A stretch of DNA of 53,991 nucleotides from Candidatus Nitrotoga sp. 1052 (GTDB lineage Bacteria > Pseudomonadota > Gammaproteobacteria > Burkholderiales > Gallionellaceae). Under the pieces are notes generated by a model, which saw only the letters and a program-made list of their open reading frames with translations, had not been told where the DNA came from and made no database searches. Below, piece by piece: positions 11,520 through 45,359 of this stretch. The stretch covers positions 1-53,991 of the forward strand of contig NZ_CAKMHQ010000056.1 of assembly GCF_927312905.1 (NCBI RefSeq). Direction: 5' to 3'. Both the position numbers and the translations under genes were made by a program. Each line of letters begins with the position of its first letter. Within the stretch, counting starts at the first letter, position 1.

Positions 11520-12443
11520 TTGAGTGAGTTCTGGATAAAAGTCGATAAAACGCTTCGCTATCATGGGCGGCAGATCCTACGTTCAACGCGTGGTGCGTTG
11601 TGGGGTATGCGCCGTTTACCTGTAGAGCGTCCTGTCTTCGTCATCGGCTGTAGCCGAGCGGGTACCACTTTGGTGTACAAAACCTTTTCTGAATCAAAGA
11701 ATTTAGGCACACTTCAGCGGGAAACGCATGATTTTTGGACGGGAATGCACCCTCTGGCCAACAAGCACTGGGCTACCCATGCATTGGGTACACAAGACGC
11801 CACTCAGAACGACAGGGATGCTGTGGCTCGCTATTTTTATGCTTATACTGGTAAAACGAGGTTTGTCGACAAGAACAACCAAAATGGCTTATGCGTACCA
11901 TATCTATATACTTTATTTCCTGATGCGCATTTCGTTTATGTAAAACGCAATCCTGGTGACAACCTTCACTCTCTGATTGAGGGTTGGGGCAAGCCCGAAG
12001 AATTCGCCACTTGGTCCAGCGAACTGAAGGAAAAAGTCTCAGTAGACAACGGGCGCTACATACAATGGTGTTTTTTTCTGTCCAATGGCTGGCGCGATTA
12101 TCTCGACAAATCTATTGAGGAGGTCTGTGCTTTTCAATACCGCGCTATTAATGAAGAAATTCTTGCGGCAAAAAAACGAATTCCCGCACAACAGTGGACT
12201 GAGGTGTTTTATGAAGACTTGGTACGTGACCCGGTTGCAGGATTTCGCCAAGCTTTCGAGCAATGTGGTCTGACGTTTACTCACGATCTTGAACAACACT
12301 GCGCAAATGTCTTGTCTACGCCCTATAACGCCTTTTCTGAAATTCGGCTAGACAAATGGAAAGATGGGCGCAACTGTGACCGCGTCGAGCGCGTGCTGCC
12401 GGAAGTGGCCGCTGTGGCGCGGGCGATGGGGTACAAGCTCTGA
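11520..12443 (+). CDS. PAPS-dependent sulfotransferase
   Basis: The 307-residue protein belongs to the sulfotransferase family that transfers sulfate from PAPS to sugars or other acceptors. The 5'-phosphosulfate loop is FVIGCSRAGTTLVYKTF at about residues 40-56. The 3'-phosphate-binding segment is YVKRNPGDNLHSLIEGWG at about 140-157, with the usual Arg-Asn-Pro core. The later FYEDLVRDP is also typical. The start is uncertain: a TTG at 11520 gives the full length, while an ATG at codon 30 would leave only about 10 residues before the loop. It is followed 2 nt later by a deacetylase-fold gene and appears to open an operon of glycan genes (sulfotransferase, deacetylase-like, GT2, GT4). The substrate is presumably the locus polysaccharide. 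Confidence 0.85.
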   Translation: MSEFWIKVDKTLRYHGRQILRSTRGALWGMRRLPVERPVFVIGCSRAGTTLVYKTFSESKNLGTLQRETHDFWTGMHPLANKHWATHALGTQDATQNDRDAVARYFYAYTGKTRFVDKNNQNGLCVPYLYTLFPDAHFVYVKRNPGDNLHSLIEGWGKPEEFATWSSELKEKVSVDNGRYIQWCFFLSNGWRDYLDKSIEEVCAFQYRAINEEILAAKKRIPAQQWTEVFYEDLVRDPVAGFRQAFEQCGLTFTHDLEQHCANVLSTPYNAFSEIRLDKWKDGRNCDRVERVLPEVAAVARAMGYKL

Positions 12444-12445
12444 AC

Positions 12446-13630
12446 ATGTTGCTGCTGCTGCCGTTGCTGGCTTGGGCGCTGTTATTGGCGTTGTATGCCG
12501 GGCGGCTTATTACCTTGTGGCATGAGCCGGTATGGCGCTGCCCTGTACTGGTGATCGAAAGCGACGACTGGGGCGCGGGTGTGCTGTCCCAGGCGGTAGC
12601 GCTGGATGCTCTGCGTACGCTGCTCAACCGCCACTGCGATCACACTGGGCGGCCCCCGGTGATGACGTTGGGCATTGTACTGGCCATCGCCGACACCGAG
12701 GCGATACGCGCTGCTGCTGGCCGTGAGTATCTACGTATCGCATTGGACGATGTGCGCTTGACGTCAGTGCTGGCCGCGTTGCGCGCCGGTATCGATGAGG
12801 GCGTGTTCGCTCCCCAGTTGCACGGCATGGAACACTACTGGCCCCCTGCCGTCATGGCCGCCGCCCAAACCGACAAGCGGGTGGCAGCATGGCTGGCGGG
12901 CGATGCCCTGCCGCGCACCGAAGACCTGCCCTCGCCGCTGCAAAGCCGCTGGACTGCGGCTGCCGTATTGCCCTCGCTGCCGCTCTCAATCCCGGAAATC
13001 AACGAAGCCGCTGCCGCTGAAACCGCTGCATTCCAGCGCATTTTCGGCATGACGGCGCAGGTTGCCGTGCCTACTACCTTTGTATGGAATGATGCGGTCG
13101 AACATGCCTGGTCGGCGCATGGCGTGCGCTGCATCATCACCCCTGGCACGCGTTACGAATACCGCGATGCACAAGGTCGCCCGGCGGGTGATGGGCGGAG
13201 CATACTGAACGGCGAACGCGGCCAGGGCAACGTGCTATACGTGGTGCGCGACCAGTATTTCGAGCCTGCTCTCGGCCACCGCGCTGAACAAGGGCTGGCG
13301 GCGCTGGCGCGGCAAACTGGGTGCGCTCGTCCAACGCTGCTGGAAACCCACCGCTTCAATTTTATTGGAGAATCTGCCAACGCAGCCATACAAGAGCTGG
13401 ATAGCTTGTTGGGTAAGGCTTGCGCTGCATACCCCACGCTGCGTTTCTTGTCCACCAAGGAAATCGCCGAGGCTATGGCGCACAAGGATGCGGAACTGAT
13501 CGAAACCGGCCTGCACCAACATCTGAGTGCGTGGCTGGCACGCATCCACAACCTCCCGCGTTTTACCAAACTGGCGCGCCTCACCGGGCTGGTGTTGCCG
13601 TTGTGGCTACTGGGAAAGTTTGCAGCATGA
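12446..13630 (+). CDS. Membrane-anchored polysaccharide-deacetylase-like protein
   Basis: The 394-residue protein has an N-terminal membrane helix (about residues 1-20, LLLLPLLAWALLLALYAG) and a catalytic-looking region that resembles the NodB/glycoside-hydrolase-deacetylase fold. VLVIESDDWGAG at about 34-45 has the DD pair expected of a metal-binding deacetylase. HGMEHYW at about 130 and LETHRFNFIG at about 303 supply candidate histidines. The C terminus ends in another hydrophobic stretch (LTGLVLPLWLLGKFAA). Deacetylation of an N- or O-acetylated sugar is the likely role, but the family is poorly characterised. It is tightly coupled: 2 nt after the sulfotransferase stop, and its stop overlaps the next ATG (ATGA). 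GC content is higher than in the flanking sulfotransferase. Confidence 0.7.
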   Translation: MLLLLPLLAWALLLALYAGRLITLWHEPVWRCPVLVIESDDWGAGVLSQAVALDALRTLLNRHCDHTGRPPVMTLGIVLAIADTEAIRAAAGREYLRIALDDVRLTSVLAALRAGIDEGVFAPQLHGMEHYWPPAVMAAAQTDKRVAAWLAGDALPRTEDLPSPLQSRWTAAAVLPSLPLSIPEINEAAAAETAAFQRIFGMTAQVAVPTTFVWNDAVEHAWSAHGVRCIITPGTRYEYRDAQGRPAGDGRSILNGERGQGNVLYVVRDQYFEPALGHRAEQGLAALARQTGCARPTLLETHRFNFIGESANAAIQELDSLLGKACAAYPTLRFLSTKEIAEAMAHKDAELIETGLHQHLSAWLARIHNLPRFTKLARLTGLVLPLWLLGKFAA

Positions 13631-14556
13631 GTAACCCACGATTTTCCGTTATCATCCCCGCCTACAATGCGGCGGCGACGCTGGCGCGCGCACTGGATTC
13701 GGTGCTGGCGCAAACCTGGCCAGCGCACGAGATTATTGTAGTAGACGACGGCTCCAGCGATGCCACCGCCGCGGTGGTGGCCGCGTATGGCGATAAAGTT
13801 CGTTATCTGTATCAGTACAACGCGGGTGTATCGGCCGCACGTAACGCCGGGGCACAGGCAGCTAGCGGCGACTGGCTGGCATTTCTCGATGCTGATGACT
13901 GGTATTATCTCAACCGCTTGAAATGGCACGCCGACTGGATTGCGTGTGATTCTGAACTCGATTTTCTGACCGGAGATTATGAATACCGCGACCCGGCGGG
14001 TAAGCTGATTGGCACGTCGATGGCTGCCAATCACTCGGGGCAACACATGCTGCTAAAAGCGGCGGGCGCACGCGAGGTGGTGATGCAAGGGTGCGAATTC
14101 GAGGCTTTTGTGGCCGATCATTTTGGCGATACCCACACACTCAGTGTGCCTCTGGCCACGTTTCTTGCGCTGGGCGGGTATCCGCTGGGCTTCGAAGTGT
14201 GCGAGGACGTGCACTTTCTCACCCGTCTGGTCGCGCGTAGTCGTCGTGTTGGGGTCGTTTGCGCGCCGTTGGGGGTTTACTTCATACACTCGGCCAGTGC
14301 CACACGTGCCGACCCGGTGCGCGCGCAGTTCGAAAATGTGCGTACTTTGATTGCCCTGGGTGAACAGGTCGCCAACTTGCCCGCCGTAGTGCGTCGTGGG
14401 TACACCACGCGGCTGCGCCAGGCACGCCTGAATCTGGGCTATGCGTTGAGTAAAACAGGCAATCGCACGGATGCGATACGTGCCGTATTACCTTCGTTAA
14501 TCGAAGCGCCGAGCCTTGGCAGCGTGCGCAATTTGTTCTCCATTCTTAAAGGCTGA
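13627..14556 (+). CDS. Family 2 glycosyltransferase
   Basis: The 309-residue, soluble-looking GT-A enzyme begins MSNPRFSVIIPAYNAAATL, the canonical GT2 start. VVDDGSSDAT (about residue 39) binds the nucleotide, the DXD-type motif lies in FLDADDWYY (about 92), and the acceptor-side CEDVHFLTRLV segment is at about 197. The ATG overlaps the stop of the deacetylase-like gene by 4 nt (ATGA), and the next gene starts 2 nt after its own stop, so the three are translationally linked. A longer in-frame extension to 13420 overlaps the previous gene and is rejected. It transfers a sugar from a nucleotide donor in the cytoplasm; donor and linkage are unknown. Confidence 0.92.
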   Translation: MSNPRFSVIIPAYNAAATLARALDSVLAQTWPAHEIIVVDDGSSDATAAVVAAYGDKVRYLYQYNAGVSAARNAGAQAASGDWLAFLDADDWYYLNRLKWHADWIACDSELDFLTGDYEYRDPAGKLIGTSMAANHSGQHMLLKAAGAREVVMQGCEFEAFVADHFGDTHTLSVPLATFLALGGYPLGFEVCEDVHFLTRLVARSRRVGVVCAPLGVYFIHSASATRADPVRAQFENVRTLIALGEQVANLPAVVRRGYTTRLRQARLNLGYALSKTGNRTDAIRAVLPSLIEAPSLGSVRNLFSILKG

Positions 14557-14558
14557 AC

Positions 14559-15701
14559 ATGCCGTGTTACCTGGTACTCACCGAATTATTCCTGCCCACC
14601 AAGGGCGGCACCGCAGTCTGGTTTGCCGAGGTGTACCGGCGCCTGTCGGGCAAGGAAACTCACATTGTGACTGCCGACGTGCCGGATGCGGCGGCGGTGG
14701 ATGCAGTGCATCCCAACACAGTACATCGTATCCGTATGCATCGTGTGACTTGGCTCCGACCGGAATCGTTGGGCATGTATGCTAACCTGTTTGTTAAATC
14801 CTTATGGTTGGCGCTTACCCACCGCTTCACTGCTATCCATGCCGGTCGCGCCCTGCCGGAAGGCATTACAGCCTGGGCAGTGGCGCGGCTGACATTCCAC
14901 CCGGTCGTGATCTACGCCCACGGCGAGGAACTTACCACCTGGGGGCACGGTGGCAAATATAAGGCAATGCGCTTTGCTTTATGTCACGCTGACCGAGTCA
15001 TTGCTAATAGTGAATTCACTCGCGATGCACTCATCAAAATGGACGTGGATCCTGCCAGCATCACACTTATTTATCCTGGTGTGGACGTGACCCGCTTTCA
15101 CCCAGGTTTGGCGTGTGCAAACTTGCGTCAATCAGTTGGTGTAACGGATGCTGGCAAGCTGATTTTGTCGGTAGGGCGGCTGTCACGGCGCAAAGGGTTT
15201 GACCAGGTGATCCAGGCACTACCTGCACTGATTCAGGCGGGGTTGGATGTACAGTACGTGCTAATTGGTATTGGCGAAGATTACGATTATTTGTTCGATC
15301 TCGCACGCAAACACGGCGTGGCTGACCGCGTGCACTTATTGGGGCACGTCAGTGCTGATGACCTGCCGCGTTGGTACAATGCTTGTGACGTATTCATCAT
15401 GCCTAACCGTGAGATCAATGGTGACAATGAAGGTTTTGGCATGGTGTTTATCGAAGCAGCGGCGTGTGGCAAGCCCGCCATTGCCGGGCAAGCTGGAGGC
15501 ACTGGGGCAGCGGTAGTGGATGGGGTGACGGGTTTTAGAGTGAATGGCACGGATACCGTTGCAGTCACCATCGCATTGCAGCGGATACTGGAAAACACAA
15601 AATATGCCCTGCAGATTGGGAACCATGCATTAACAAGAGCAATCAAACAATTTGATTGGTCTATAGTGGCTGAAAAAACTCAACAATTGCAAACGAAATA
15701 A
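14559..15701 (+). CDS. Family 4 glycosyltransferase (GT-B)
   Basis: The 380-residue retaining glycosyltransferase has two Rossmann domains. The N-terminal acceptor domain opens YLVLTELFLPTKGGTAVWFAE, with a glycine-rich GGT loop. The C-terminal donor domain begins ILSVGRLSRRKGFDQVIQAL (about 205) and carries the EX7E-type motif in EGFGMVFIEAAACGKPAIAG (about 290). An HGEELTTWG loop resembles PimB-like and WcaL-like mannosyl/glucosyl transferases. It starts 2 nt after the GT2 gene in the same operon. Donor specificity cannot be read from the sequence. Confidence 0.9.
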   Translation: MPCYLVLTELFLPTKGGTAVWFAEVYRRLSGKETHIVTADVPDAAAVDAVHPNTVHRIRMHRVTWLRPESLGMYANLFVKSLWLALTHRFTAIHAGRALPEGITAWAVARLTFHPVVIYAHGEELTTWGHGGKYKAMRFALCHADRVIANSEFTRDALIKMDVDPASITLIYPGVDVTRFHPGLACANLRQSVGVTDAGKLILSVGRLSRRKGFDQVIQALPALIQAGLDVQYVLIGIGEDYDYLFDLARKHGVADRVHLLGHVSADDLPRWYNACDVFIMPNREINGDNEGFGMVFIEAAACGKPAIAGQAGGTGAAVVDGVTGFRVNGTDTVAVTIALQRILENTKYALQIGNHALTRAIKQFDWSIVAEKTQQLQTK

Positions 15702-15755
15702 TACCTGATCATTAGCCGCTGCTGCATTTAAGTAGTATTTAATACAAGGATAAAA

Positions 15756-16511
15756 ATGATGAGACTAATCAAATTACGGATTGCATTTTCACTGTCAATA
15801 CTTGTCGTGTTTGGATCAAATCAGGCTTTAGCTTTCGATAGTAGTTATGCAGGTACTGAGGCTGATAGATTAAGACTCCCTTCCTTTTGCCAGGCAAACA
15901 GCAGCGTCCACCCCCCCCCCCATTATTGTTCTGCACTCAATTTTATTAATCGGTATAAAAGTCATTTTGGTAACAAAACTGCGCAACGTTTTTATTTAGA
16001 TAGTGCATTAGATGATTTAGGTTATGCTTTCGGTCATTCGTCACCCACGAACCCGTTTTGGCCAGAGATGCATGTTCAGAAAGGCAAGTTGCTTGCTGCC
16101 GCTAAACGCAATGTCGAAGCGGTAAGCGAATTTGAGCAAGCGCTACAAAGAAATCCAAACTATGTTGAAGCGTATGTTGCGCTCAGTGATCTTTATCAGA
16201 ATACCGGTCAACAATCGAAATCTATTACGGTAGTGGAGCAAGCGTTACAGCGTGCGCCAAATAATAAATCTATGCAAAGACGATACAAACAGCTGACAGG
16301 TAAAGTTTTTACGCCTCCCCCACTCACGGCCGAGCAGGCTGCGCAAATCCCTCCCACGCCAATACCTGTTGTGCAAGCCGCTGCGACAAGCGGAGTTAGC
16401 TCGACCACTACACAACCAGTTCCTGCTTCATCGCCAGTTGTCGTGCCAGAAAAGATTGGCTCACCCACCAACCCCTGGTGTCGTTTCTGCACTGATTCTG
16501 ACCAGCCTTGA
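15756..16511 (+). CDS. Secreted TPR-repeat protein with internal poly-C tract
   Basis: The 251-residue product has a signal peptide (about residues 1-27, ending ALA), then a Cys-containing N-terminal region (SFCQANSS...HYCSALNF). Two to three TPR units follow at about 105-180 (WPEMHVQKGKLLAAAKRN; AVSEFEQALQRNPNYVEAYV; SKSITVVEQALQRAPNN). A Pro/Thr/Ser-rich linker and a short NPWCRFCTDSDQP C terminus with a CxxC close the protein. It is probably periplasmic and may act as a scaffold for glycan assembly or secretion. AAGGA precedes the ATG. An 11-base C run inside codons 52-56 (VHPPPH) could switch the gene on and off by slippage; the present length is in frame. Its base composition is lower in GC than its upstream neighbours. 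Confidence 0.75.
   Translation: MMRLIKLRIAFSLSILVVFGSNQALAFDSSYAGTEADRLRLPSFCQANSSVHPPPHYCSALNFINRYKSHFGNKTAQRFYLDSALDDLGYAFGHSSPTNPFWPEMHVQKGKLLAAAKRNVEAVSEFEQALQRNPNYVEAYVALSDLYQNTGQQSKSITVVEQALQRAPNNKSMQRRYKQLTGKVFTPPPLTAEQAAQIPPTPIPVVQAAATSGVSSTTTQPVPASSPVVVPEKIGSPTNPWCRFCTDSDQP
15911..15921. repeat. Poly-C (11) homopolymer inside the TPR gene
   Basis: Eleven consecutive C within the coding region, about 155 nt after the start codon. A loss or gain of one base would truncate the protein. Tracts of this length are known slipped-strand contingency sites in surface-structure genes of other bacteria. Confidence 0.9.
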
Positions 16512-16544: not shown

Positions 16545-18398
16545 ATGTGCGGTATTTGCGGAGTGTTTTCTTTCAGTGGACCCGATCTCCTCGATCCCTT
16601 GCCGGATATGGTGGAGCTGATGGTGCGACGCGGCCCGGATGACGAAGGGTTGTGGAGCGATCACGTGCGCTGCGCTTTCGGCTTCCGGCGGCTGTCGGTT
16701 CAGGACTTGTCGTCTACCGGGCATCAACCGATGCCAAGCGATGATGGGCGCTATGTCATTGTGTTCAATGGTGAGGTTTACAACTTTCGCGAACTGCGCA
16801 CCGAGCTGCAAAGTCAGGGCGTTCGCTTCCGTTCAAGCGGCGATACCGAAGTCGTCCTGTATGCGCTGGTCCGCTGGGGCCGGCAGGCGCTCGAGCGTTT
16901 CAATGGTATGTTTGCGCTGGCCTTCTATGACACGCTGGAAAAGCGCTTGCTGCTGGCGCGTGATCACGCCGGAATCAAACCGCTCTATGTCCTGAACACT
17001 GCACAAGGCCTCGTGTTTGCTTCACAGTATGACCAGATTTTGGCGCATCCGCTGAGCCGCGCCTGTGCAGTCAACGGTGATGCGCTCGGTTTGTATCTGC
17101 GTCTGGGTTACATACCCGCGCCCTACGCGTTGCTCAAGGGCAGCCAGATGTTGCCAGCAGGCGCCTGGATGGAAATCGACGCACTGGGTGCAATACGTGA
17201 AGGTCGCCATTTCGAGTTTCTGGTTTGGCGCGAACCCGACCTGCGCGGCGATGCAGCCGTGGAGGCACTGGACGAGGCCATCACCGCCAGTGTGAAAAGC
17301 CAGTTGGTGAGTGATGTGCCGGTCGGCACCTTTCTCTCGGGAGGCATTGATTCGCCCTTGGTCGCCGCCAAAATCCACGCTCTCGGTCGCGAAGATGTCA
17401 AAGCCTTCACCATTGGCACCGCCGGACACGCCACGGACGAATCCGCCGATGCAAGCATCTATGCAAAGGAAATCGGCATCACTCAAGTGATCGAGCACAT
17501 CACGCCGGAACAAAGTCTCACCATGCTTCATGAAGTCGTCGAAGCCTGCGGTGAGCCCTTCGGCGACTTCTCCATGTTCCCAACCCTGCTGGTGTCGCGG
17601 TTGGCACGGCGCGAGGTGACCGTCATGCTATCCGGCGATGGTGGCGACGAATTGTTCTGGGGCTACGCCAAACGTTTCGCAGATGTGGTGGCACGTAGCC
17701 CAGACTTTGCGCAACCGCTGCTACTGCGCAAAATGCGTTGGGGGATGAAACGCCATCTCGGCATTGGCAACGCCTACCCACAGCTTACCTGGCCCACGAT
17801 CGGTGACTGGTACCGTTCTAAACAAAGCCATCTGCACGAAGACTGGCTGTGTGAAGTATTTCCCGAAGGACCTTTCTGGCCGGATGATTGCAACCTTTTT
17901 CAGTACGCGGGGCATGACCGATCGGAAACAGCCCAATGGGCTCGCCACAATGAGTTCGTCGGGCGCATGAGCATGATCCTGCTCAAGGTAGATCGCGCCA
18001 GCATGCATGAGTCGCTCGAAGTGCGCGTTCCCTTGCTGGATCGCCGCGTCATAGAAGTCGCCAGCCGCACCGACTGGCAAAGCTGTCTCGACCTCGAGCA
18101 ACGCGTTGGCAAACTGCCCCTGCGCCGCCTGCTCAGCCGTCACGTCAAACACCAAACCCAGGCCAAGCGCGGCTTCACCGTTCCCATGGGCGTATGGTTG
18201 CGCGGGCCATTGCGCGAAGTGTTCGAAGCTGAAGTGCTGTCACGGACCGAGTTTCTCGGCTATCCCATCAATCAACGCGCGTTGCGCCGCCGGTTTGCAG
18301 AGTTTTTGTCTGGATCATCGGACGAGGCATGGGGATTCTGGTTACTGTTGAGCCTGGCATTGTGGGAGAAACAGCACTATCGAAAATTCAGATATTGA
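16545..18398 (+). CDS. asnB: Asparagine synthetase-type glutamine amidotransferase
   Basis: A complete 617-residue class-II glutamine-dependent amidotransferase. The glutaminase domain starts MCGICGVFSFSG with the nucleophile Cys2 exposed after Met removal. It has RRGPDDEG (about 28-35), the FNGEVYNFREL segment (about 74) and the GDTEVVLYAL segment. The synthetase domain has TFLSGGIDSPLVAAK (Ser265) and MLSGDGGDELFWGYAK. Such paralogues in glycan loci often amidate a sugar acid or amino acid rather than make free asparagine. It contrasts with the paralogue at 9344-11188, which lacks these glutaminase motifs. It starts 33 nt after the TPR gene and its last 11 nt overlap the convergent glycosyltransferase. 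Confidence 0.92.
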   Translation: MCGICGVFSFSGPDLLDPLPDMVELMVRRGPDDEGLWSDHVRCAFGFRRLSVQDLSSTGHQPMPSDDGRYVIVFNGEVYNFRELRTELQSQGVRFRSSGDTEVVLYALVRWGRQALERFNGMFALAFYDTLEKRLLLARDHAGIKPLYVLNTAQGLVFASQYDQILAHPLSRACAVNGDALGLYLRLGYIPAPYALLKGSQMLPAGAWMEIDALGAIREGRHFEFLVWREPDLRGDAAVEALDEAITASVKSQLVSDVPVGTFLSGGIDSPLVAAKIHALGREDVKAFTIGTAGHATDESADASIYAKEIGITQVIEHITPEQSLTMLHEVVEACGEPFGDFSMFPTLLVSRLARREVTVMLSGDGGDELFWGYAKRFADVVARSPDFAQPLLLRKMRWGMKRHLGIGNAYPQLTWPTIGDWYRSKQSHLHEDWLCEVFPEGPFWPDDCNLFQYAGHDRSETAQWARHNEFVGRMSMILLKVDRASMHESLEVRVPLLDRRVIEVASRTDWQSCLDLEQRVGKLPLRRLLSRHVKHQTQAKRGFTVPMGVWLRGPLREVFEAEVLSRTEFLGYPINQRALRRRFAEFLSGSSDEAWGFWLLLSLALWEKQHYRKFRY

Positions 18399-19413
18399 AA
18401 ATCCAAGCCAGGATGCGATCTTGTAGCCCTGCTGCCATTTGGGACTGCAAAGGAGAACTGATAACCCTTTCCACTACCTTCAACCATTGCGTGGAAATGT
18501 TTTCGGGACTGAAGTGCATCCAAGCACAATCCCGTGCATGGTATCCGAGTTTCTCCCGCGTAGCCTGATCTTGAAGCATGTCGATTCCCAGAGCGAATTC
18601 CTCTATGCTCGTGGCCAGAAGGCAGTTTTCACCATGCCGTGCGAAAGATTCATAAGCCGGCAAAGGGCTGGCGATCGTAGGCATGCCCAAGGCCATGAAC
18701 ATGTTTAGACGGTTTGCCGATTTCGCAACATACTGTTGCCCTTCCGGCATGGGGACAATGGCAATGTCACAATTGAGAATGTATGAGAACACAGTATCAA
18801 GCGACCACTTGTGTGTCGGCCAGTTTCCCTTTGAGATGGTCACGAATTCTACCTTGTCGCTGATGCTTTGGAGGCTGGACAACCGGTCAAGGTATTGCGA
18901 GATGAAGTCACGGTAGCTGCCATGTCCCACCCAAACAACCTTAAGTCGTTCGCCAGAAGCGGCGTAGTTATTCTTGAATACCTTGGGTGGCACCTCGATC
19001 ATGTCTTCGATCACAAACGCGCGCCTTACGCTTAAAAGTGCCTTAAGCTTTCCAGTAGGGACGATAGTAGCATCGAAATAACGGTCATATTCCCCCGGAA
19101 TGTCGTCACAGCGGATGGCGATTGTGCGAATCCCGTTGAGTCGGCACCAAAGACTCAGCTTGTACATCATCCAATTGGGGCGTTCAAATAGCAACACATC
19201 ATAGCCATTTCGGAGCAAGCGCCGTGCTAAACCAAGCAGTTTGCCTGAGTAGTTCGTGTGCTGACTATTGAAATCAGAAGCAACTATTTCTGAGTTGATG
19301 CCTCGCTGAAGAAATTCTTTGTGTACATGGAATCCTTGCAATCGTGAACTCGCGACTGTCATGTCGCCGGATATGCACCATCCCACCTTTATTGTTTTAT
19401 TCGTTTCTGGCAT
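18388..19413 (-). CDS. Glycosyltransferase, GT4-like (GT-B fold)
   Basis: The 341-residue protein (counted from the ATG at 19413; a TTG at 19434 adds seven residues) has a divergent GT-B layout. The N-terminal half contains GWCISGDMTVASSRLQGFHV and YDVLLFERPNWMMYKLSLW. The C-terminal half has LKVVWVGHGSYRDFISQYL, CDIAIVPMPEGQQYVAKSANRLNMF and MALGMPTIASPLPAYESFA, the donor-binding part of GT4/GT1 enzymes. The Ser-Arg-Leu-Gln start resembles transferases that act on rigid carrier-linked acceptors. It is the last gene of the minus-strand block that begins near 31.6 kb and converges on asnB with an 11-nt overlap. The acceptor is unknown. Confidence 0.72.
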   Translation of the reverse strand: MPETNKTIKVGWCISGDMTVASSRLQGFHVHKEFLQRGINSEIVASDFNSQHTNYSGKLLGLARRLLRNGYDVLLFERPNWMMYKLSLWCRLNGIRTIAIRCDDIPGEYDRYFDATIVPTGKLKALLSVRRAFVIEDMIEVPPKVFKNNYAASGERLKVVWVGHGSYRDFISQYLDRLSSLQSISDKVEFVTISKGNWPTHKWSLDTVFSYILNCDIAIVPMPEGQQYVAKSANRLNMFMALGMPTIASPLPAYESFARHGENCLLATSIEEFALGIDMLQDQATREKLGYHARDCAWMHFSPENISTQWLKVVERVISSPLQSQMAAGLQDRILAWIFNI

Positions 19414-19437
19414 GGCAATTATTGAATACGGCAAAAT

Positions 19438-20061
19438 TTAGCCATGTTTATGCAAATCGATTTTATGTAACTGGTATCGAATTTCATAACATGGAAAGAT
19501 ATGGCAAAGGTTTTCCTCATAGAACTCCGTTGTGTATACATTGAAGTTAACGATTTTCTCTATGATTTTTTTAATTTTTTTGCGCCCGCGGAATGGCGAA
19601 GTAAAAATTAACTTCACACCAAGCAACTCTAACGAAGGCTTGTTCTTATAGTTAGGCACCTTTCTTTTTAAGAATCTATCAATAGACAGATAGGAAAAAG
19701 AGTAAAGCCCGAAGAATTGTTTGTGTGTGTAGTCTGAATAAAAATAGGGATTCGTGAAGTGAGGCACAACACATACTAATTTCCCGCCAGGCTTTAGCAC
19801 TCTGCTCACTTCCTCTACCAACTTAGGCAAGTCTTGAATATGCTCGAAAAAGTGAAATGAATGCAACTCATCAACCGTATTCTGTGGGATGCGTTCGAGA
19901 ATTTCAAATACGTCACCGACAATGTCTACACCCTCATAATCGATAGCGTCTATGCCTATTGCTTCTGGTATCTTCTTTCTTGGGCCGCATCCGAGCTCAA
20001 GTATCACTGGGCTGCATTTTGTAATATTGGTCAATAAGTTTTGATGATCAATGATTGGCAT
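19438..20061 (-). CDS. SAM-dependent methyltransferase (class I)
   Basis: The 207-residue Rossmann methyltransferase has motif I as VILELGCGPRKK (about residues 19-30), an acidic post-I IGIDAIDYEGVDIVGD, and a motif IV-like HSFHFFEHIQDLPKLVEEV. RVLKPGGKLVCVVPHF follows, the Methyltransf_11 pattern. The C-terminal third is Lys/Tyr rich (KKIKKIIEKIVNFNVYTTEFYEEN) and AT-rich, unlike the GC-rich genes upstream, which suggests separate acquisition. It may O-methylate a sugar and so cap or diversify the glycan. It lies 24 nt before the GT4-like gene and 140 nt after the acyltransferase remnant. Confidence 0.8.
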   Translation of the reverse strand: MPIIDHQNLLTNITKCSPVILELGCGPRKKIPEAIGIDAIDYEGVDIVGDVFEILERIPQNTVDELHSFHFFEHIQDLPKLVEEVSRVLKPGGKLVCVVPHFTNPYFYSDYTHKQFFGLYSFSYLSIDRFLKRKVPNYKNKPSLELLGVKLIFTSPFRGRKKIKKIIEKIVNFNVYTTEFYEENLCHIFPCYEIRYQLHKIDLHKHG

Positions 20062-20201: not shown

Positions 20202-20678
20202 TCATGTGTTTTGATTCTTTCCCGTGATCAAACGGCGCGCAACAGAAATGCCTGGAAGCTCGATCCATCGATATGTTGCTGAAGCAAAGAAATAGGTGGT
20301 CAGTACAGTGAATGCCAGCGTAACAGATAGCTTCAATGACTCACCCCACAAGCCGAGGTTGACGATGAGCAGCACCGAAATACCAACGAACAGGTTGAAT
20401 GTCGGCCAGATTCTGAAGGTACGCTTGAGATAGTAATGCCGGATGTCACGCAGGCCGGACATTTTGCCGTTGCTGATCCATAGCGTGCATCCGCTCAATA
20501 CGAAAAACAGGGCTACCGCATAAGAGCCCAGATCGAGCAAGCCCAATGGCAAAAAATAGCTGGGCTCGTCCAAGCTGGAATATTTAATCTCCGTTGCCCT
20601 GATCGAGTGCGACACAATGACCAGAAAGGCGGCAATGCCTCTCAACCAGGTCAATTGTTCAAGACGAGGTTTGCTCAT
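20202..20678 (-). pseudogene. Acyltransferase-3 (OafA-like) with internal deletion
   Basis: Counted from the ATG at 20678 (4 nt after the upstream stop), the product is 158 residues, against about 340-380 for intact acyltransferase-3 membrane enzymes. The N-terminal part is right: QLTWLRGIAAFLVIVSHSIR with the catalytic His, then LFFVLSGCTLWIS and HYYLKRTFRIWPTFNLF. It then jumps almost directly to the family C terminus (TYFFASATYRWIELPGISVARRL). About six membrane helices are missing, by an in-frame deletion. It probably once O-acetylated the glycan and is unlikely to function now. The reading frame is open, so a truncated protein could still be made. Confidence 0.75.
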
Positions 20679-20682
20679 GGTT

Positions 20683-23600
20683 TCATTGTCCGATTGCCGA
20701 CGCCTGAACCCGCTGCCATCCAGCACTGTCTGTCGTACTGACACGCCCGATTTTTTGAATCAACCCCGCCATGTATTCCGCCGAATGGCCTTCGTGCGCG
20801 TAGAACGTGCGGCGCATGTGCGCCCGGCCTTCGGCCTTGGCCTGCGGGTTGGACAACGCGGCTTGGCAGGCGGGCACGAGCTCGTCGAGACGGCTGAATG
20901 AATGCGAGGCGCCGACGAAAATATCCTTCAAGCCGGCAAAGGTGAACTCAAAATCCGGTTGGTCGAAGAATACGATGGGGCGGTCGAGCAAGCTGTAAGT
21001 GGACATCACCGAACTGTAATCGCCAACCAAAAGATCAGCCGCCGCCAGCAGGGTTTCGACATCGCTGGTCTGAATGAAACGGACATGGGGATACTGTGCT
21101 TCGATGATGCGCATGTCTTCGAGCACGGCGGCCTGCCAATCAGCGGGCACGTTGTGGTTGGCTTTCCACAGCCAGGGATGCCCGGTCTGGATGAGATTGC
21201 ACTCGGGGAAGGCTTGCGCCAGCGCGCGCAGTGGTGCGGCGTTGTAACTGCGCAAAATGGCTTGCGGCTGCCAGTGTGAGGTGATGAGCAGGGTCATGCG
21301 ATCGGGAAGCCCCAGTTGTTCGAGCACGGCACGGCGGTCGAATTCCCCCCTGCAGAGTGCGTCACTCTTGGGGAAGCCAACGGGGATGAATACCCGCCGT
21401 TCATTGAAAAGTCCAGGCTGGTAACGGTCGAACCAATCATATTCGGCTTCCGAGAGGCCGCAAAAAATATCGCATTGCTTGATCGGTCCGGTTTTATTGC
21501 CGAGGATGCCGAACCCGGGGCCGTGATGCATGTATAGGCGTAAAGCGTTGAATGCCGGGTAAAAGGGGTTCATGTGTGTGCTGACCAGCATGTGCCATTT
21601 ACTTAGGCGGGCGCGCCGGCTTGGTAGTTGCAGGGAATGGAATAGTACGCGATCTTCCGGCGTGGCGAAATCGATGTCGTTTACTACGTCGGGTTTGTCG
21701 GTCGTGATCAGCACCAGCACATCCGGGCAGGCCTGCAGTGCACGGATGACTGGCGATTGACAGGCAAAGCCATAGCTGTCGGTCAGCACAAAAAGCACTC
21801 GAGTACGGTGGGCGAATCTTTCGAAGCACCAGTCGAAGGCAGCTCGGACATTCGCCAGTATTTTTCTGCGCAAGTGCGTGGACGTGAGCGCGGGCAATTT
21901 CACGATTGCACCCTCACCGCAAGTCACTGCATGGTGATTTGCAATGCGCTCCTCCGGTTGTATGTAGAGCTCGAGTCGCTGCCACAGTGATTGAGCGACT
22001 TCGGGTTGGCAGTCGATGACATCGCGGGTACAGCCGGGGTCGCTTTCAACATCGAAGAGCATCAGCTGATAGCCCTCTTCCAAGGGTTGGTATACCAGTT
22101 TCCAGCGCCCGCTGCGCAGCATGCGATCTTTGGCCGTGAGCACAATAGGCAGGTATTCGGGCTTGAGCGTGAGGGTGCCGCTTTCGCGGTCGGGCACTGC
22201 GATCAGTTCCAGCAGGTCGGGATAACGCAAGTGTTTGTCGGGCAGCCCCGGAATGTCAGTGATCCACATGCCGGTTTCGTTGAAGGCATCGAGTTGCGGA
22301 CAGTGTTCATGTTGACTAAAACAAGCCGCAAGGGAAACCCCATCCATGTTGGCGGCGGGGTTTGCACCGGCCAATTCCAGCAGTGTGGGCGCAAGATCGA
22401 TGCTGCGAACCACTTGGTCTACTTTTCTGCTGGCGGGCTTGCGAGGATCGCTGATCAGAAGTGGAATGCGCGGGCTGAAATCGCCCACCGCCGAATTGCC
22501 CTGCCCCCAGGTATTGTGCTCGAAAAACTCCATGCCGTGATCGGAATAGACGACGACGATAGTGTTACCCGCCAGCCCACAGGTGTCGAGGTGTTGCAGC
22601 ATGCGCCCGACTTCATCGTCGAATTGCGCCACGCAGCTGTCATACAGATCGATGATCTGGTCAAGATCGAACTCTTCTTTAGGCGCGCCCTGGCGACGGA
22701 TGATATCGAACGGATCGGTCAGCTTGGCCATGGCGAACTTGGATTCACCGTTATAGGACGGATCGGCAAAGCGCGTGTACCACGGCCATTCGGAGGCAAA
22801 CGGCGGGTGCGTGGTGGAATAAAACACATTGAGAAAAAATGGTTGGGTACTTTCCGATAGACGCGAAACCAGATGCCGGGCATATTTGCCCATCGGTTGG
22901 GTCAGCGGTACGCCTCCTAGGTAATAAATTTCCGGGAGCATCAGTCGCCCCAACCGGTTGTGGGTAAACAGCGATAAAAAAAGGCGTAAATCCTTAGGCC
23001 CCTGCCGGATCAGATATTTTAGGTTCCACTGGTCTTCTGGCAGGTCGGTGTAATCGAAACCGAAGGAGAATTTGCCCATGTCGCCGCCGCACCAGTCGGA
23101 GATAGCAGCGGTGCGGTAGCCCTGTGCCTTGAGAAGATGGGGCAGTGCATCGACTTTTAGCCGGGTAACATCGTCCGCGTTAAAATTGTCGCGAATGCCG
23201 TGGGTGTGCGGCCAAGTACCTGTCATTAGCGAAATCAGGCTGGGAGCGGTGCGAGCGCAGGGTACATAGCAATTGGAAAACAGCACCCCCAGCTCGGCCA
23301 GTTTATCAATATTGGGCGTGAGGGCGCGTCGATATCCCAGCGTACCCAGCCGATCTGCACGCAAGGTGTCTGATCCGATCATGAGAATATTGGGTGGCGC
23401 ATCGGCCGCACGTTCGGGTGTTCGGCGGGGTGGACGTGCCTCGGGCAACCAAGCCGCCCAGGTAATTGTGCCTGCAAAAAATAGCACAGCAGCCCACAAC
23501 GCAATCAGATCGGCCATCTGGTTCTGCTTGATCAATTGTAATGAAGTGGCGATCAGCAACAACAAAGTGGCAGAAATACACGCAAACTGCATTAGATAAA

Positions 23601-25047
23601 TGCGCTCCGGCGTCATCCAGCGCCACAGCCCATAAAAGCGGCTAATGCGGTAATGCATGGAGGCGACGAGCAACCCCGGATTGAAGCGCAGCTTGCGGAT
23701 AAATTGCAGCATGACCGCGCCCGATATACCCAGCACTGCCGCGAGTGTTGCAAGGCCACTTGACCATTCGCCGCTCAGACTTACATTCAACATGTAATAC
23801 AGTAATACTCCTGCACTGCCAGTAAATAGCATGATAGAAAATGCCCAGGCAGATAGACGGGCGAGCGCAAACAGGGTGTAGCGCCGGTAATGGGCGAGTA
23901 CTTCTTTTTGAATGCGTGGCCCGGTTTGAGAAAAATCCATTAGCGATTTTGTCAGCAGTGCCATAGAACCTACGCCTGCCACAAATAACGCAGGTAATCC
24001 ACCAGCCCAGCGTGCACTGCCGCTGGTAAACCAGGCAATCAATCCACAGGTAACTGTCGAAATCGCCAGCGCTACAATGAGCAAGTTGCCGCGATCAGGG
24101 GGAAGCGAAAGGTCTTTACCACGATGGCCCGATTCCCGACGGCCTTGCAGTTCTCCCAAGGCGGCAGCCGTCCGCATCCAGTAGAAACGCCGCTTGGCCC
24201 ATGATCGGCTGAACACGCTGTGAAGCCCATATTCAGCCAGCTTGCGCCACATATAGAGCGGTATCCGGCCATGGCCCTGAATGCGCGAGGTGGAGCGGGT
24301 GCGCTGAAAACTTTTTTTAAGCAGGTAGCTGAGTTTCAGGCGATCAATATCCACATAATGATGCTGAACTATGTCCGGCGCGTACTGGCAACGTATACCG
24401 CGAATCATGGCACGCAATACATATTCGCTGTCCTCGCCGCCACCCAAATCGTGACCGTGCGGCCCAAGCTCGGTTGAAAACTGCCCGGCAAGGGCGAACA
24501 CGTGGTGTCGCACCACGAGATTGCCGCCCCCGGGGATAGGGCCTTCTTCCGCCGTGATCGTTTTGGGTTGATCGCCCTGGTTATAGCGTGGCACTGGCAG
24601 CGGGTAAATTCGATACGGTCCTTCGTCATGCACCCATGCGGGCTCAGTTCCATTCCAGTCAGGCAAGATGCGACCACAATACAAACCCGCATCGGGCCAG
24701 CTTTGGGCAGCATGTGCAATTGCAACCAGATAATTTTCATCGACTCGATGGTCATCATCGACAAAGGCGGTCAGTTCAGTGTCGATTTCTGGAATGGCCC
24801 GATTGAGCGCATGCGACTTGCCCGGCGTGGGTACTTCAATCAGGCGTAGCGGCAGCCAACCATTAGTTGCTTGTTGCGTCTCATATGCCTGCATGCGCGC
24901 CACCGTATCGTCGGTGCAGGCATTTGCTGCCACCAGAATCCGTACTGGCATTTCTGGTCGATGTGCTGCATTCAGTGAAGCCAGCAGCCGTTCCAGCAAA
25001 TCGGCTCGGTTGTGGGTGCAGATGAGAACAGTGATCAGATTGGCCAC
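20683..25047 (-). CDS. GT2-membrane-AP/sulfatase-fold-CDP-glycerol-transferase-like fusion protein
   Basis: A single 1454-codon frame from GTG (25047) to TGA. Domain 1 (about 1-290) is a GT2 glycosyltransferase: ITVLICTHNRADLLERLL, FVDDDHRVDENYL, GGEDSEYVLRAM. About 320-535 has roughly six hydrophobic helices. Domain 2 (about 550-1000) has the alkaline-phosphatase/sulfatase fold: ILMIGSDTLRADRLG (metal Asp about 559), ARTAPSLISLMTG with Thr600 where sulfatases carry the formylglycine Cys/Ser and Leu where they have Arg, then YSDHGMEFFEHN (Asp836, His837). Domain 3 (about 1090-1440) resembles CDP-glycerol glycerophosphotransferases: LYMHHGPGFG (His about 1175) and DYSSVMSTYSLLDRPIVFFD (about 1343). 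Thr600 points to a phosphotransferase such as LtaS/EptA rather than a sulfatase. It follows another GT2 gene by 3 nt. I know of no named family with this architecture. Confidence 0.85.
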   Translation of the reverse strand: MANLITVLICTHNRADLLERLLASLNAAHRPEMPVRILVAANACTDDTVARMQAYETQQATNGWLPLRLIEVPTPGKSHALNRAIPEIDTELTAFVDDDHRVDENYLVAIAHAAQSWPDAGLYCGRILPDWNGTEPAWVHDEGPYRIYPLPVPRYNQGDQPKTITAEEGPIPGGGNLVVRHHVFALAGQFSTELGPHGHDLGGGEDSEYVLRAMIRGIRCQYAPDIVQHHYVDIDRLKLSYLLKKSFQRTRSTSRIQGHGRIPLYMWRKLAEYGLHSVFSRSWAKRRFYWMRTAAALGELQGRRESGHRGKDLSLPPDRGNLLIVALAISTVTCGLIAWFTSGSARWAGGLPALFVAGVGSMALLTKSLMDFSQTGPRIQKEVLAHYRRYTLFALARLSAWAFSIMLFTGSAGVLLYYMLNVSLSGEWSSGLATLAAVLGISGAVMLQFIRKLRFNPGLLVASMHYRISRFYGLWRWMTPERIYLMQFACISATLLLLIATSLQLIKQNQMADLIALWAAVLFFAGTITWAAWLPEARPPRRTPERAADAPPNILMIGSDTLRADRLGTLGYRRALTPNIDKLAELGVLFSNCYVPCARTAPSLISLMTGTWPHTHGIRDNFNADDVTRLKVDALPHLLKAQGYRTAAISDWCGGDMGKFSFGFDYTDLPEDQWNLKYLIRQGPKDLRLFLSLFTHNRLGRLMLPEIYYLGGVPLTQPMGKYARHLVSRLSESTQPFFLNVFYSTTHPPFASEWPWYTRFADPSYNGESKFAMAKLTDPFDIIRRQGAPKEEFDLDQIIDLYDSCVAQFDDEVGRMLQHLDTCGLAGNTIVVVYSDHGMEFFEHNTWGQGNSAVGDFSPRIPLLISDPRKPASRKVDQVVRSIDLAPTLLELAGANPAANMDGVSLAACFSQHEHCPQLDAFNETGMWITDIPGLPDKHLRYPDLLELIAVPDRESGTLTLKPEYLPIVLTAKDRMLRSGRWKLVYQPLEEGYQLMLFDVESDPGCTRDVIDCQPEVAQSLWQRLELYIQPEERIANHHAVTCGEGAIVKLPALTSTHLRRKILANVRAAFDWCFERFAHRTRVLFVLTDSYGFACQSPVIRALQACPDVLVLITTDKPDVVNDIDFATPEDRVLFHSLQLPSRRARLSKWHMLVSTHMNPFYPAFNALRLYMHHGPGFGILGNKTGPIKQCDIFCGLSEAEYDWFDRYQPGLFNERRVFIPVGFPKSDALCRGEFDRRAVLEQLGLPDRMTLLITSHWQPQAILRSYNAAPLRALAQAFPECNLIQTGHPWLWKANHNVPADWQAAVLEDMRIIEAQYPHVRFIQTSDVETLLAAADLLVGDYSSVMSTYSLLDRPIVFFDQPDFEFTFAGLKDIFVGASHSFSRLDELVPACQAALSNPQAKAEGRAHMRRTFYAHEGHSAEYMAGLIQKIGRVSTTDSAGWQRVQASAIGQ

Positions 25048-25050
25048 AGG

Positions 25051-25962
25051 TCAGCGCGAACGGTACAGACCCTGCATCAGGCCGAGAAAATGGCACACCA
25101 CCATTTCTCGGTTGAATGCTTCATCCAGGGGCTGGGTCATGTGTCCCCACAGCATGCGCGCCATGGCGCGCATGAACTGGGGTAAGACATACAAGGGAAT
25201 GTTGAACAGCCGGCGTTCACCGGCCAGCCCGCGGCTCTGCGCGATGTTGAGGCTGGTCTGGAAGCGCCAGCGGCGAAAGTAGCGCTTAGTCAGGCGGAAA
25301 GCTTCAACTTTATGGTGAACTCGGGACTGTCCCAGGAAAATGGCTTTTAGCCCGGCCGCCAGGATCCGCTCGAACATCTCGCCGTCCTCACCGCTGGCCA
25401 ACAAGTTTCCTTTGCGACCGCGGTTGGTATCGAACAGGGCGACGCGGTCGAACACCGTCCGTTTCATGGCCATGTTTGCACCAAATGGCGCCTGGCTCGC
25501 CAGCGTGATCGGGTAGTCATCGGTACGGTCGGTGCGAATCGCGAGAAAGCCATAAAAGCGCTCAGTGAGCCACGCGGGTGGCGGTGTTTCCCAGATCGGC
25601 GCGATGTATCCGCCGCAGGCATCTGCGTTGGACTTCTCCAGTCCACTTAGTGTCACTTCCATCCAGTCCGGTTCAGGCAGCACGTCGTCGTCGGTAAAAA
25701 GAAGGACGTCTCCCCGCGCTGCGGCGATGCCGTGATTGCGTGCGTGTGACAATCCTTGGGTTTGCTCGAACTCATAGCGGAGGAGGGGCCACTCGCGCTG
25801 CACCTCCTTCACGACCCGGTGTGTGTGATCTCTCGAATTGTTGTCGACAACAACAATTTCCCAGCTGCGAGACGGGCTCGTTTTTTGGGCGCGCAGTGCG
25901 TGCAGCGTGTCGCGGAGCGACTCGGCGCGATTGTAGGTGCAGACGATGATGCTAGCATCCAT
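25051..25962 (-). CDS. Family 2 glycosyltransferase, paralogue of the fusion's first domain
   Basis: The 303-residue GT-A enzyme starts MDASIIVCTYNRAESL. It has VVVDNNSRDHT (about 37), GLSHARNHGIAAARGDVLLFTDDDVLPEPDW with the DDD metal motif (about 92), and GEDGEMFERILAAGL (about 190), followed by a VHHKVEAFRLTKRYFRRW helix. The same order and spacing of motifs occurs in the N-terminal domain of the adjacent 1454-residue fusion, so the two are paralogues. Three nt separate its stop from the fusion's GTG start, so the pair is probably co-translated and may act in sequence on the same glycan. The C-terminal helices (PQFMRAMARMLWGHM) may associate with the membrane. Confidence 0.9.
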   Translation of the reverse strand: MDASIIVCTYNRAESLRDTLHALRAQKTSPSRSWEIVVVDNNSRDHTHRVVKEVQREWPLLRYEFEQTQGLSHARNHGIAAARGDVLLFTDDDVLPEPDWMEVTLSGLEKSNADACGGYIAPIWETPPPAWLTERFYGFLAIRTDRTDDYPITLASQAPFGANMAMKRTVFDRVALFDTNRGRKGNLLASGEDGEMFERILAAGLKAIFLGQSRVHHKVEAFRLTKRYFRRWRFQTSLNIAQSRGLAGERRLFNIPLYVLPQFMRAMARMLWGHMTQPLDEAFNREMVVCHFLGLMQGLYRSR

Positions 25963-32540: not shown

Positions 32541-33664
32541 GCTGCGGGTTCCAAGTTTGCAAAAATCTTCTGCACGATCTTGATGCTCGCGGTGCCGTCG
32601 CCGTAGGGGTTGGCGCGCGTCGCCATCGCCTGATACGCGGCGGGGTCGTCGAGCAGGCGGCTCGCCTCGCGTACGATGTCGGCGGCGTCCATGCCGACGA
32701 GCTTCAGGGTGCCGGCCTCGACGCCTTCCTGCCGCTCGGTGACCTTGCGCAGCACCAGCACGGGCTTGCCCAGGCTGGGCGCCTCTTCCTGCAGGCCGCC
32801 GGAATCGGTCAGAACCAGGTAAGCGCGCTTCATCAGCTGCACCAGCGGCAAATAGTCGAGCGGGTCGAGCAGGCGAACATTGGGGATGTCGGCCAGGTAG
32901 CGGCTAACGACCGCACGCACGTTGGGGTTCCGGTGCACCGGGTAGACGAGCTCGATGTCGTCGGCATATTTTTGAGCAAGCTCGGCCAAGCCTTTGCAGA
33001 TTGACTCGAACGGCCAGCCGAAGCTTTCGCGCCGGTGCGCGGTGACGAGCACGATGCGCCTCGAGTCGAATGGGATCGCCTCGAGCGGCGAGCCAGCCAT
33101 CTCGAAGGGGCGGGCAGAAACGTCGAGCAGCGCGTCGATCACGGTGTTGCCGGTGACCGCGATCGCCGATTCGGCGATGCCTTCGTTGAGGAGATGCTGC
33201 CTCGCCTTGTCGCTGTGTGCAAAGAAAATGTCGGCCACTGCGTCGATCATCCTGCGGTTGGCTTCCTCGGGGTAGGGATGATGCTTGTCGAAGGTGCGCA
33301 GGCCGGCCTCGACGTGGCCGATCTTGACCCCCGCGTAGAAGGCCGCCAGTGCCGCCGCCATCGAGGTCGTCGTGTCGCCTTGGACCAGCAGCAGATCGAA
33401 TTTCTCCTCACGAAGCATCCTGCCAATTTCCTGCAGCACGCTGACAGTAATATGCTCCAGAGTTTGGTTTTTCCGCATCAGGTTCAGATCGTGGTCGACG
33501 CGGATGCCGAACAGGTCGATCAGCGGCGCCACCATGTCCTTGTGCTGCCCGGTCAGGCAGTTGCGGTTGTCGATGACACCGGGATGACGCTCAAGTTCGG
33601 CGATCAGCGGGGCCATCTTGATTGCCTCGGGGCGGGTACCAAAGACGGTGAGTACCTTAAGCAT
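32537..33664 (-). CDS. wecB: UDP-N-acetylglucosamine 2-epimerase (non-hydrolysing)
   Basis: The 375-residue enzyme interconverts UDP-GlcNAc and UDP-ManNAc, supplying ManNAc or ManNAcA for surface glycans. It begins MLKVLTVFGTRPEAIKMAPL, the family hallmark. VQGDTTTSMAAALAAFYAG, GHVEAGLRT, PEEANRRMIDAVAD, VTAHRRESFG, YPVHRNPNVR and LTDSGGLQEEAPSLGKPVLVLR are all present, including the catalytic Asp, Glu and His positions. GGAGG sits 7 nt before the ATG at 33664, and a 12-codon upstream extension is rejected. Its first 8 nt overlap the end of the upstream toroid-fold gene. No wecC-type dehydrogenase is in the window. Confidence 0.96.
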   Translation of the reverse strand: MLKVLTVFGTRPEAIKMAPLIAELERHPGVIDNRNCLTGQHKDMVAPLIDLFGIRVDHDLNLMRKNQTLEHITVSVLQEIGRMLREEKFDLLLVQGDTTTSMAAALAAFYAGVKIGHVEAGLRTFDKHHPYPEEANRRMIDAVADIFFAHSDKARQHLLNEGIAESAIAVTGNTVIDALLDVSARPFEMAGSPLEAIPFDSRRIVLVTAHRRESFGWPFESICKGLAELAQKYADDIELVYPVHRNPNVRAVVSRYLADIPNVRLLDPLDYLPLVQLMKRAYLVLTDSGGLQEEAPSLGKPVLVLRKVTERQEGVEAGTLKLVGMDAADIVREASRLLDDPAAYQAMATRANPYGDGTASIKIVQKIFANLEPAA

Positions 33665-42421: not shown

Positions 42422-42423
42422 GG

Positions 42424-42627
42424 TTATTTAAAGTCTTCCTTACTAAGGCCGGACTGCCTGGGAATAGAGGCAAACGTGCCTAATGGTATTTTCTTCTTGG
42501 GATCAGGAACAATCACGGTTCTTTCACCTTTACGGAATTTCTTATGGCTGCTTTTTTGGGAAATAAAGATGAAACCGTGCCGCAGCAAGATATTAACAAT
42601 CGTATTTGATGAATAAAGCTCAGCCAT
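42424..42627 (-). CDS. hicA: HicA-family mRNA-interferase toxin
   Basis: The 67-residue toxin with the HicA double-stranded-RNA-binding-like fold cleaves mRNA. The N terminus MAELYSSNTIVNILLRHGF is followed by the conserved catalytic-His region KSSHKKFRKGERTVIVPDP and the C-terminal GTFASIPRQSGLSKEDF. It overlaps the upstream hicB by 8 nt (ATG at 42627), so the antitoxin comes first in this operon. It ends 3 nt before wzt, so read-through from the module would reach the exporter ATPase gene. Confidence 0.88.
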   Translation of the reverse strand: MAELYSSNTIVNILLRHGFIFISQKSSHKKFRKGERTVIVPDPKKKIPLGTFASIPRQSGLSKEDFK

Positions 42628-42826
42628 TGACAGCGTATTCTCCAAGCAGGGCTTCTTCTATGGGGTGGTATTCTGCCTCCCCTTCTTCAAAGTAGAGCTC
42701 GGTGGCGTCCTTCAGATTCTGGATCGCTTCGTCAATAGTGTCGCCACAGCTTGCTACGTCAATATTTAAGCATTGTGAAACGTAATATTTATCTTCCCGG
42801 TAAACGACAAATTTAAGGTTTTTCAT
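42620..42826 (-). CDS. hicB: HicB-family antitoxin
   Basis: The 68-residue protein begins MKNLKFVVYREDKYYVSQCL, then ASCGDTIDEAIQNLKDATELYF, the partial RNase-H-like HicB domain that neutralises HicA. No separate C-terminal DNA-binding domain is present, so autoregulation may be weak. Antitoxin-first order with an 8-nt overlap with hicA. The start lies 14 nt inside the end of the hybrid frame made by the DUF5615 remnant. Confidence 0.87.
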   Translation of the reverse strand: MKNLKFVVYREDKYYVSQCLNIDVASCGDTIDEAIQNLKDATELYFEEGEAEYHPIEEALLGEYAVNG

Positions 42827-42916
42827 GGTTCACTTCCATCCATAATAAAAGGAAACCGACTATCTGGAATAAGTGAAATGGGGTCGCACCAGTCAATTGG
42901 GATAGACACCATTTCC

Positions 42917-45306: not shown

Positions 45307-45359
45307 AGGGGTAGCGAACAGCGGATAGGGGTTGGTGGGTAGTCAGCAGCGGTAGTGGG

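Follow-up and report, generated by a model that had tools for sequence, protein, structure and literature searches.

A conserved glycosyltransferase and alkaline-phosphatase-fold membrane protein with a TagF-like C-terminal extension in a polysaccharide locus of Candidatus Nitrotoga sp. 1052

The stretch analysed here (the window, 53,991 bp) is contig C56 of the 3.2-Mb genome of Candidatus Nitrotoga sp. 1052 (99 contigs, completeness 100), and it carries a polysaccharide locus. Besides many glycosyltransferases, the locus encodes two sulfotransferases, a Wzt-like ABC protein and two proteins resembling asparagine synthase. Within this locus lies a single frame of 1454 codons on the minus strand (20683..25047), which begins with GTG three bases past the stop of an upstream GT2 gene and has no internal stop. 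A preliminary description of this DNA, which was silent on the strand, had reported an uninterrupted frame with three catalytic domains joined by a membrane segment, and on each of these points we agree with it.

The first domain is a GT2 glycosyltransferase of the GT-A type (residues 6-231, 24355..25032), matched by Pfam Glycos_transf_2 over residues 6-146 with 50.7 bits (cut-off 23.3). It is followed by a membrane region (residues ~322-535, 23443..24084) with six hydropathy peaks (at residues 331, 357, 407, 441, 492 and 523), and then by an alkaline-phosphatase (AP)-fold domain (residues 552-895, 22363..23394), which Pfam Sulfatase matches with 161.7 bits (cut-off 25). A junction (residues 1035-1049, 21901..21945), about which the proteins of relatives end, leads to a TagF-like GT-B domain (residues 1061-1454, 20686..21867), all of these features being on the minus strand. 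Pfam Glyphos_transf (PF04464) matches this last domain at residues 1219-1366 (20950-21393) with 45.3 bits (gathering threshold 22.1), the match being limited to profile positions 159-296 of 367. The final 350 residues, on which the preliminary description had made its proposal depend, do contain a significant match. The C-terminal stretch has a coding-like G+C content at codon positions 1, 2 and 3 (0.617, 0.434 and 0.68), and its 424 open codons would arise by chance with a probability of about 7e-7 at its base composition. No named family uniting all three domains was found in searches of the literature, Pfam and NCBIfam, in line with what had been supposed. As far as sequence can tell, the triple fusion is real, and unusual.

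The three domains do not form one established unit. Two of them make up an old family, and the third was found fused to it in this genome alone. This family, called the core in the following, comprises the GT2 domain, six predicted membrane helices and the AP-fold domain (residues 1 to ~1035). Among the 61 genomes searched for it (19 of the genus Candidatus Nitrotoga and 42 others), long matches were present in 12 of the 19 genus members, the source included, one of which (G006) has a different GT2. Outside the genus the core was found in two of the 42 genomes, once whole, in a member of another family (G050), and once with the GT2 part absent, in a member of the same family (G023). A scan of genome contigs gave 134 stretches matching the core; the best 80 were kept as loci, some of them cut by contig ends, and all 80 contain core sequence. 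They come from Thiobacillus, Nitrotoga, Sulfuricella, Sulfuriferula, Aromatoleum, Marichromatium and others.

Entry into the core alignment (A2, the window protein plus 54 others) needed a match reaching from residue 12 or earlier to residue 1018 or later, as found in 59 of the 80 loci; the 21 loci left out on this ground were partial, cut or equipped with another GT2, and L054, L058, L064, L075 and L103, which look like near-duplicates, were also omitted. In the GT2 domain, D97-D98-D99, at the place of the acidic metal-binding motif, and E205-D206, at that of the catalytic acidic residue, are kept in all 55 aligned sequences. All 169 columns that are invariant among the other 54 proteins are also kept in the fused protein, whose core has therefore not decayed. 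In a tree, the core of the window clusters with eight other Nitrotoga rows (support 100/99), and this position inside the Nitrotoga clade implies that the fusion is young. Searches of Pfam, NCBIfam and the literature returned neither a name nor a function for the core family. The core is an old, conserved two-enzyme protein, and it is of greater interest than the fusion itself.

Judged by its gene structures, the core family is modular, the GT2 part being exchangeable or encoded as a separate gene. In nine loci (L102, L104 and L111-L117) the GT2 and membrane-AP parts are separate genes with less than 2 kb between them, and a different type of GT2 stands in front of the membrane-AP part in L078, L082, L085, L086, L087 and G006. 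The membrane-AP part of the GT2-replaced proteins in L078, L082, L085, L086, L087 and L011 is 69-79% identical to that of the window. The source genome also holds a second core gene, in two broken pieces, on contig C30 (locus L122; 4868-5152 and 7292-8101), which correspond to residues 629-723 at 96% and residues 760-1029 at 72%. FkbM-like and GT4-like genes, named from sequence alone, adjoin the larger of these pieces, as they do, in the same order, behind the core gene of G008, the best match.

The C-terminal domain has a very different distribution from the core. Its sequence occurs in one of the 19 genus genomes, the source, and none of the open reading frames of the 80 core loci matches it; the core proteins of relatives run on for at most 31 residues beyond the end of the match, an end that is reached in 79 of the 80 loci. 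When residues 1061-1454 were used as the query (P0002), matches were obtained in 3 of 300 genomes of the order and in 13 of 398 genomes of the phylum, the source being included in both counts and the other matches being remote. A search of genome contigs with the same query gave nine pattern matches and no relatives, and a search of plasmids gave one Streptomyces record, annotated as a bifunctional GT2 protein, with 32.1% identity across 36% of the query. Two other genus genomes have a separate Glyphos_transf stretch. One of them, Nitrotoga sp. BS (G001), encodes a separate 488-residue Glyphos_transf protein (C64:56295-56747; L119, L121) with a core gene on the same contig; this protein shows little similarity to the domain of the fusion (phmmer E 0.017).

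Glyphos_transf itself matched 25 of 399 genomes of the order, 23 of them above the cut-off. Five long frames with this domain were compared with Pfam, and Sulfatase was found in none of these at E 0.001 or better; frames of 612, 667, 861, 898, 1010, 1035, 1226 and 1232 residues lay outside this comparison. The partner domains in the five were GT2 in one, TPR with GT41 and GT61 in two, a methyltransferase with RgpF and GT2 in one, and TPR with a group-1 glycosyltransferase in one. The architecture search across genomes that the preliminary description had proposed thus produced no second triple fusion among the 80 core loci or the five frames from the order. From these comparisons, the TagF-like domain is an addition to a conserved core, found in a single genome as far as examined.

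The genes behind the core point to how this addition may have come about. In relatives the commonest gene at this place is a convergent TPR gene (36 of 75), and in G008 an FkbM-like and then a GT4-like gene follow, both named from sequence without a domain search. The same place in the source genome is occupied by the C-terminal domain, an acyltransferase-3 fragment (20202-20744, with profile positions 3-112 of 326 matched), a methyltransferase of low G+C content (0.385; 19438-20061) and a group-1 glycosyltransferase (18388-19434); the latter three are on the minus strand, and each is matched in 0 of the 80 core loci. DNA similarity to G008 reaches window position 22084 and returns at 15710.

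It could be argued that the fusion is only apparent, in that two adjoining genes had their boundary obscured by an error of sequencing or assembly, or that the second part is translated separately from an internal start. This would suit the early end of the core proteins in relatives, the absence of a clear linker and the occurrence in one genome alone, and also GTG codon 1049 at the junction, which has GAGGG upstream and, to judge from the sequence, could mark the place where the C-terminal domain once began, or an alternative start for it. However, the frame resembles that of relatives as far as about residue 1034 and then continues open, and we consider an apparent fusion unlikely, if not strongly so. 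For a genuine fusion, boundary loss after gene exchange is the simplest history: a group of genes would have arrived downstream of the core gene, and two adjoining genes would then, probably, have lost the boundary that separated them.

The C-terminal domain keeps the histidines of TagF-type enzymes (HHG and GHP) and a DYSS motif (alignment, by eye). A profile (A3) recovers TagF, TarL, Cps3D and Bcs3, and weakly UDP-GlcNAc 2-epimerases as well. The residues listed for Cps3D in the accessible part of its description are H479, G480, T481, P482, R607, H609, S647, S648, D652, F391, R542 and A573 (PMC11666461). In a comparison by eye, which covers nine of these and leaves F391, R542 and A573 outside, H479, G480, H609, S647 and S648 are kept, and the CDP-glycerol contacts T481, P482, R607 and D652 are replaced by Pro, Gly, Thr and Thr. 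Glycerol-3-phosphate cytidylyltransferase (TIGR01518) had no match in the source genome, in a search that gave matches in 12 of 14 control genomes, two of them above the cut-off. The four CTP_transf_like (PF01467) proteins of the source genome are CoaD, NadD, PanC and RibF, each above its NCBIfam cut-off. A CDP-ribitol route was set aside: PF01128 gave two matches, a protein of 483 residues that is GlmU and one of 235 residues (230.9 bits) that was taken as IspD.

The preliminary description had suggested that the glycan carries glycerol phosphate or a similar group. Because no TagD-type cytidylyltransferase was found in the genome and several of the CDP-glycerol contacts are not kept, glycerol phosphate is unlikely to be the transferred unit. 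TagF-like domains are described as transferring hexose-phosphate or glycerol-phosphate in the accessible part of a study of capsule polymerases (PMC5974469). The polymerases treated there (Cps1B, Cps12B, CslB and Ccs2) resemble the present protein in that a GT-A and a TagF-like GT-B domain share one polypeptide. They differ from it in that the present protein has membrane helices and an AP-fold domain in addition, which that part of the source does not describe, and in that several of its CDP-glycerol contacts are changed.

Hydropathy averaged over the 55 core sequences has six peaks between the GT2 and AP-fold domains. With 21-residue helices placed on these peaks, the successive loops have mean Lys+Arg contents of 5.7, 0.75, 3.7, 0.25, 4.0, 1.4 and 4.0, and with borders set by hand the values are 6.0, 0.6, 3.7, 0.1, 5.6, 1.1 and 3.9. 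The Lys+Arg totals average 17.5 inside versus 2.4 outside, and the inside total is the larger in 55 of 55 sequences. When equal windows of 10 residues are compared, the stretch before the AP-fold domain has more Lys+Arg than the preceding loop in 42 sequences, the same number in 9 and a smaller number in 4. The split-gene form lacks the first of the six helices, and there L114 and L117 have acidic N-termini (by eye), which fits an N-terminus on the outer side of the membrane, and that of L102 has one Lys, several of these starts being uncertain. With moderate confidence, the AP-fold domain is predicted to be cytoplasmic, with the GT2 domain also inside. As six helices are inferred, all three catalytic domains would face the cytoplasm.

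In the AP-fold domain, D560, T600, H747, D836, H837 and Q849 are kept in all 55 sequences, and residue 604 is Leu in 54 and Met in one. The sulfatase signature Cys/Ser-X-Pro-X-Arg is replaced by Thr-Ala-Pro-Ser-Leu, and in an alignment by eye with arylsulfatase and choline-sulfatase chains T600 stands opposite Cys/Ser, L604 opposite Arg and Q849 opposite Lys. Thr is not convertible to formylglycine, which makes hydrolysis of sulfate by the customary mechanism unlikely; at the nucleophile position of the AP fold, Thr is typical of phosphoryl transfer (LtaS, EptA, NPP). A Thr nucleophile and the ligands of a single metal site (D560, T600, D836 and H837, roles by homology) are present throughout. 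Together the three replacements indicate phosphoryl chemistry, and we lean towards a phosphate-ester reaction rather than desulfation, with transfer and hydrolysis both possible on these residues.

In having membrane helices and, after them, an AP-fold domain with Thr at the nucleophile position, the protein is reminiscent of LtaS and EptA, to which it had been likened. However, its AP-fold domain is nearer to sulfatases in sequence (NCBIfam arylsulfatase 134.8 bits versus LtaS 21.6 bits, both below their curated cut-offs), the protein has six predicted helices compared to five, and the AP-fold domain is predicted to lie across the membrane from theirs, as LtaS and EptA act outside the cytoplasm. 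A periplasmic action like theirs is judged unlikely on this predicted topology and sequence distance. The original proposal was a glycan made and phospho-decorated in one pass, with an LtaS/EptA-like AP-fold domain and a C-terminal domain that adds glycerol phosphate. The Pfam identities of the domains, the Thr and the catalytic histidines of the TagF-like domain fit such a scheme, but the predicted cytoplasmic position of the AP-fold domain, the lack of a TIGR01518 match with the CTP_transf_like proteins assigned elsewhere, and the four altered Cps3D contacts do not, and we regard it as quite unlikely. Its three domains, the glycan locus and the lack of a named family stand; the likeness to LtaS and EptA and the glycerol phosphate are not supported.

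The group of sulfatases and phosphonate monoester hydrolases (PF00884; PDB 6hhm, 7oz8, 4upl, 2w8s) shares with our domain the AP fold, by sequence, with Asp and Asp-His at the places of metal ligands and a substrate-side His. The present domain differs in having Thr for Cys/Ser, Leu for Arg and Gln for Lys, and in being membrane-anchored and fused to GT2. A formylglycine sulfatase is rejected on account of Thr600, Leu/Met604 and Gln849 in 55 of 55 sequences. That the domain is some true sulfatase removing the sulfate added by the sulfotransferases of the locus, as its best Pfam and PDB similarity and the two sulfotransferase clusters in 23 and 20 of the 80 core loci might suggest, is very improbable, given a Thr that cannot become formylglycine, Leu or Met at the place of the signature Arg, and Gln at that of the Lys in every sequence (partners assigned by eye).

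Of the possible explanations we favour, tentatively and at a little less than an even chance, a membrane-anchored enzyme of exopolysaccharide assembly at the cytoplasmic face, which combines a glycosyl step, a phosphoryl step and a recently added TagF-like transferase. The GT2 domain would add a sugar to a lipid-linked glycan, and the AP-fold domain would use Thr600 and a single metal site (D560, D836, H837) for phosphoryl chemistry, the target being either that same acceptor or its donor. The C-terminal domain would draw on a nucleotide donor and transfer a unit linked through phosphate, with sugar-1-phosphate likelier than glycerol phosphate.

Several observations weigh against this explanation. 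Lys+Arg per residue is 0.18, 0.13, 0.14 and 0.24 in the inside loops and 0.15, 0.02 and 0.14 in the outside ones, such that two of the three outer loops, all of which are short, match some of the inner loops, and if one of the six segments failed to cross the membrane, the AP-fold domain would lie outside. On its own, the C-terminal domain matches TagF only at E=0.018, and the value of 4.5e-35 against TagF was obtained with the A3 profile, which includes 17 remote rows. In the tree, two genus members (G013 and G018) are placed outside the Nitrotoga clade, from which it follows that the core gene also moves between lineages. Finally, as the locus contains sulfotransferases, a role connected with sulfate is still possible.

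The earlier reading of the region as a surface-glycan locus is supported. The upstream GT2 gene (25051..25962, minus strand) belongs to a cluster of which a GT2 directly precedes the core gene in many relatives. A conserved convergent module on the plus strand (11520..16511) consists of genes for a sulfotransferase, an unnamed protein of 394 residues, a GT2, a GT4 and a TPR protein, with matches in 23, 37, 45, 51 and 57 of the 80 core loci, respectively; these neighbour counts are lower bounds, as flanks stop at 8 kb or at contig ends, and a YdjC gene was left out. The unnamed protein (12446-13630, plus strand) has no Pfam match at E 0.001 and has relatives in 37 of these loci. A squalene-hopene-cyclase-like protein (33657-34577, minus strand), which shares 90% identity with a protein of a Thiobacillus core locus (L045), occurs in 8 of the 80. 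Three further stretches (41838-42832, 43386-43623 and 45072-45308) all correspond to a single 5' portion of the gene that encodes the Wzt-like ABC protein in G008, and are therefore degenerate partial copies behind the ABC gene.

Literature searches found nothing on the triple fusion or on the core family. One gene is labelled 'Sulfatase (wbbL)', and as wbbL is the name of a GT2 gene, this gene, RGS1_10427, bears the labels of both a sulfatase and a GT2. It belongs to the psc1 polysaccharide cluster of Rubrivivax gelatinosus, identified by transposon screening in work on biofilm formation, and its row in the accessible part of that paper is without an insertion mark (PMC3684757). As with the core gene here, its surroundings include GT2, polysaccharide deacetylase, asparagine synthase and wzxC genes. 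By name and gene context in that part of the source, it is a candidate orthologue of the core, to be taken as a lead only.

A wider proposal, which we hold to be possible, if doubtful, is that GT2-membrane-AP proteins are a new class of exopolysaccharide enzyme, in which a cytoplasm-facing AP domain of the Thr type transfers or trims phosphate on a lipid-linked glycan before export, and in which exchangeable GT2 and add-on TagF-like modules alter the polymer between strains. If the AP-fold domain is indeed cytoplasmic, its phosphoryl chemistry would take place at a stage of polysaccharide assembly for which we know of no enzyme with this fold. The fusion illustrates domain gain in loci of this kind and cautions against inferring the chemistry of a glycan from a Pfam name, and the conserved core is a glycan enzyme that is widespread among bacteria oxidising sulfur or nitrite.

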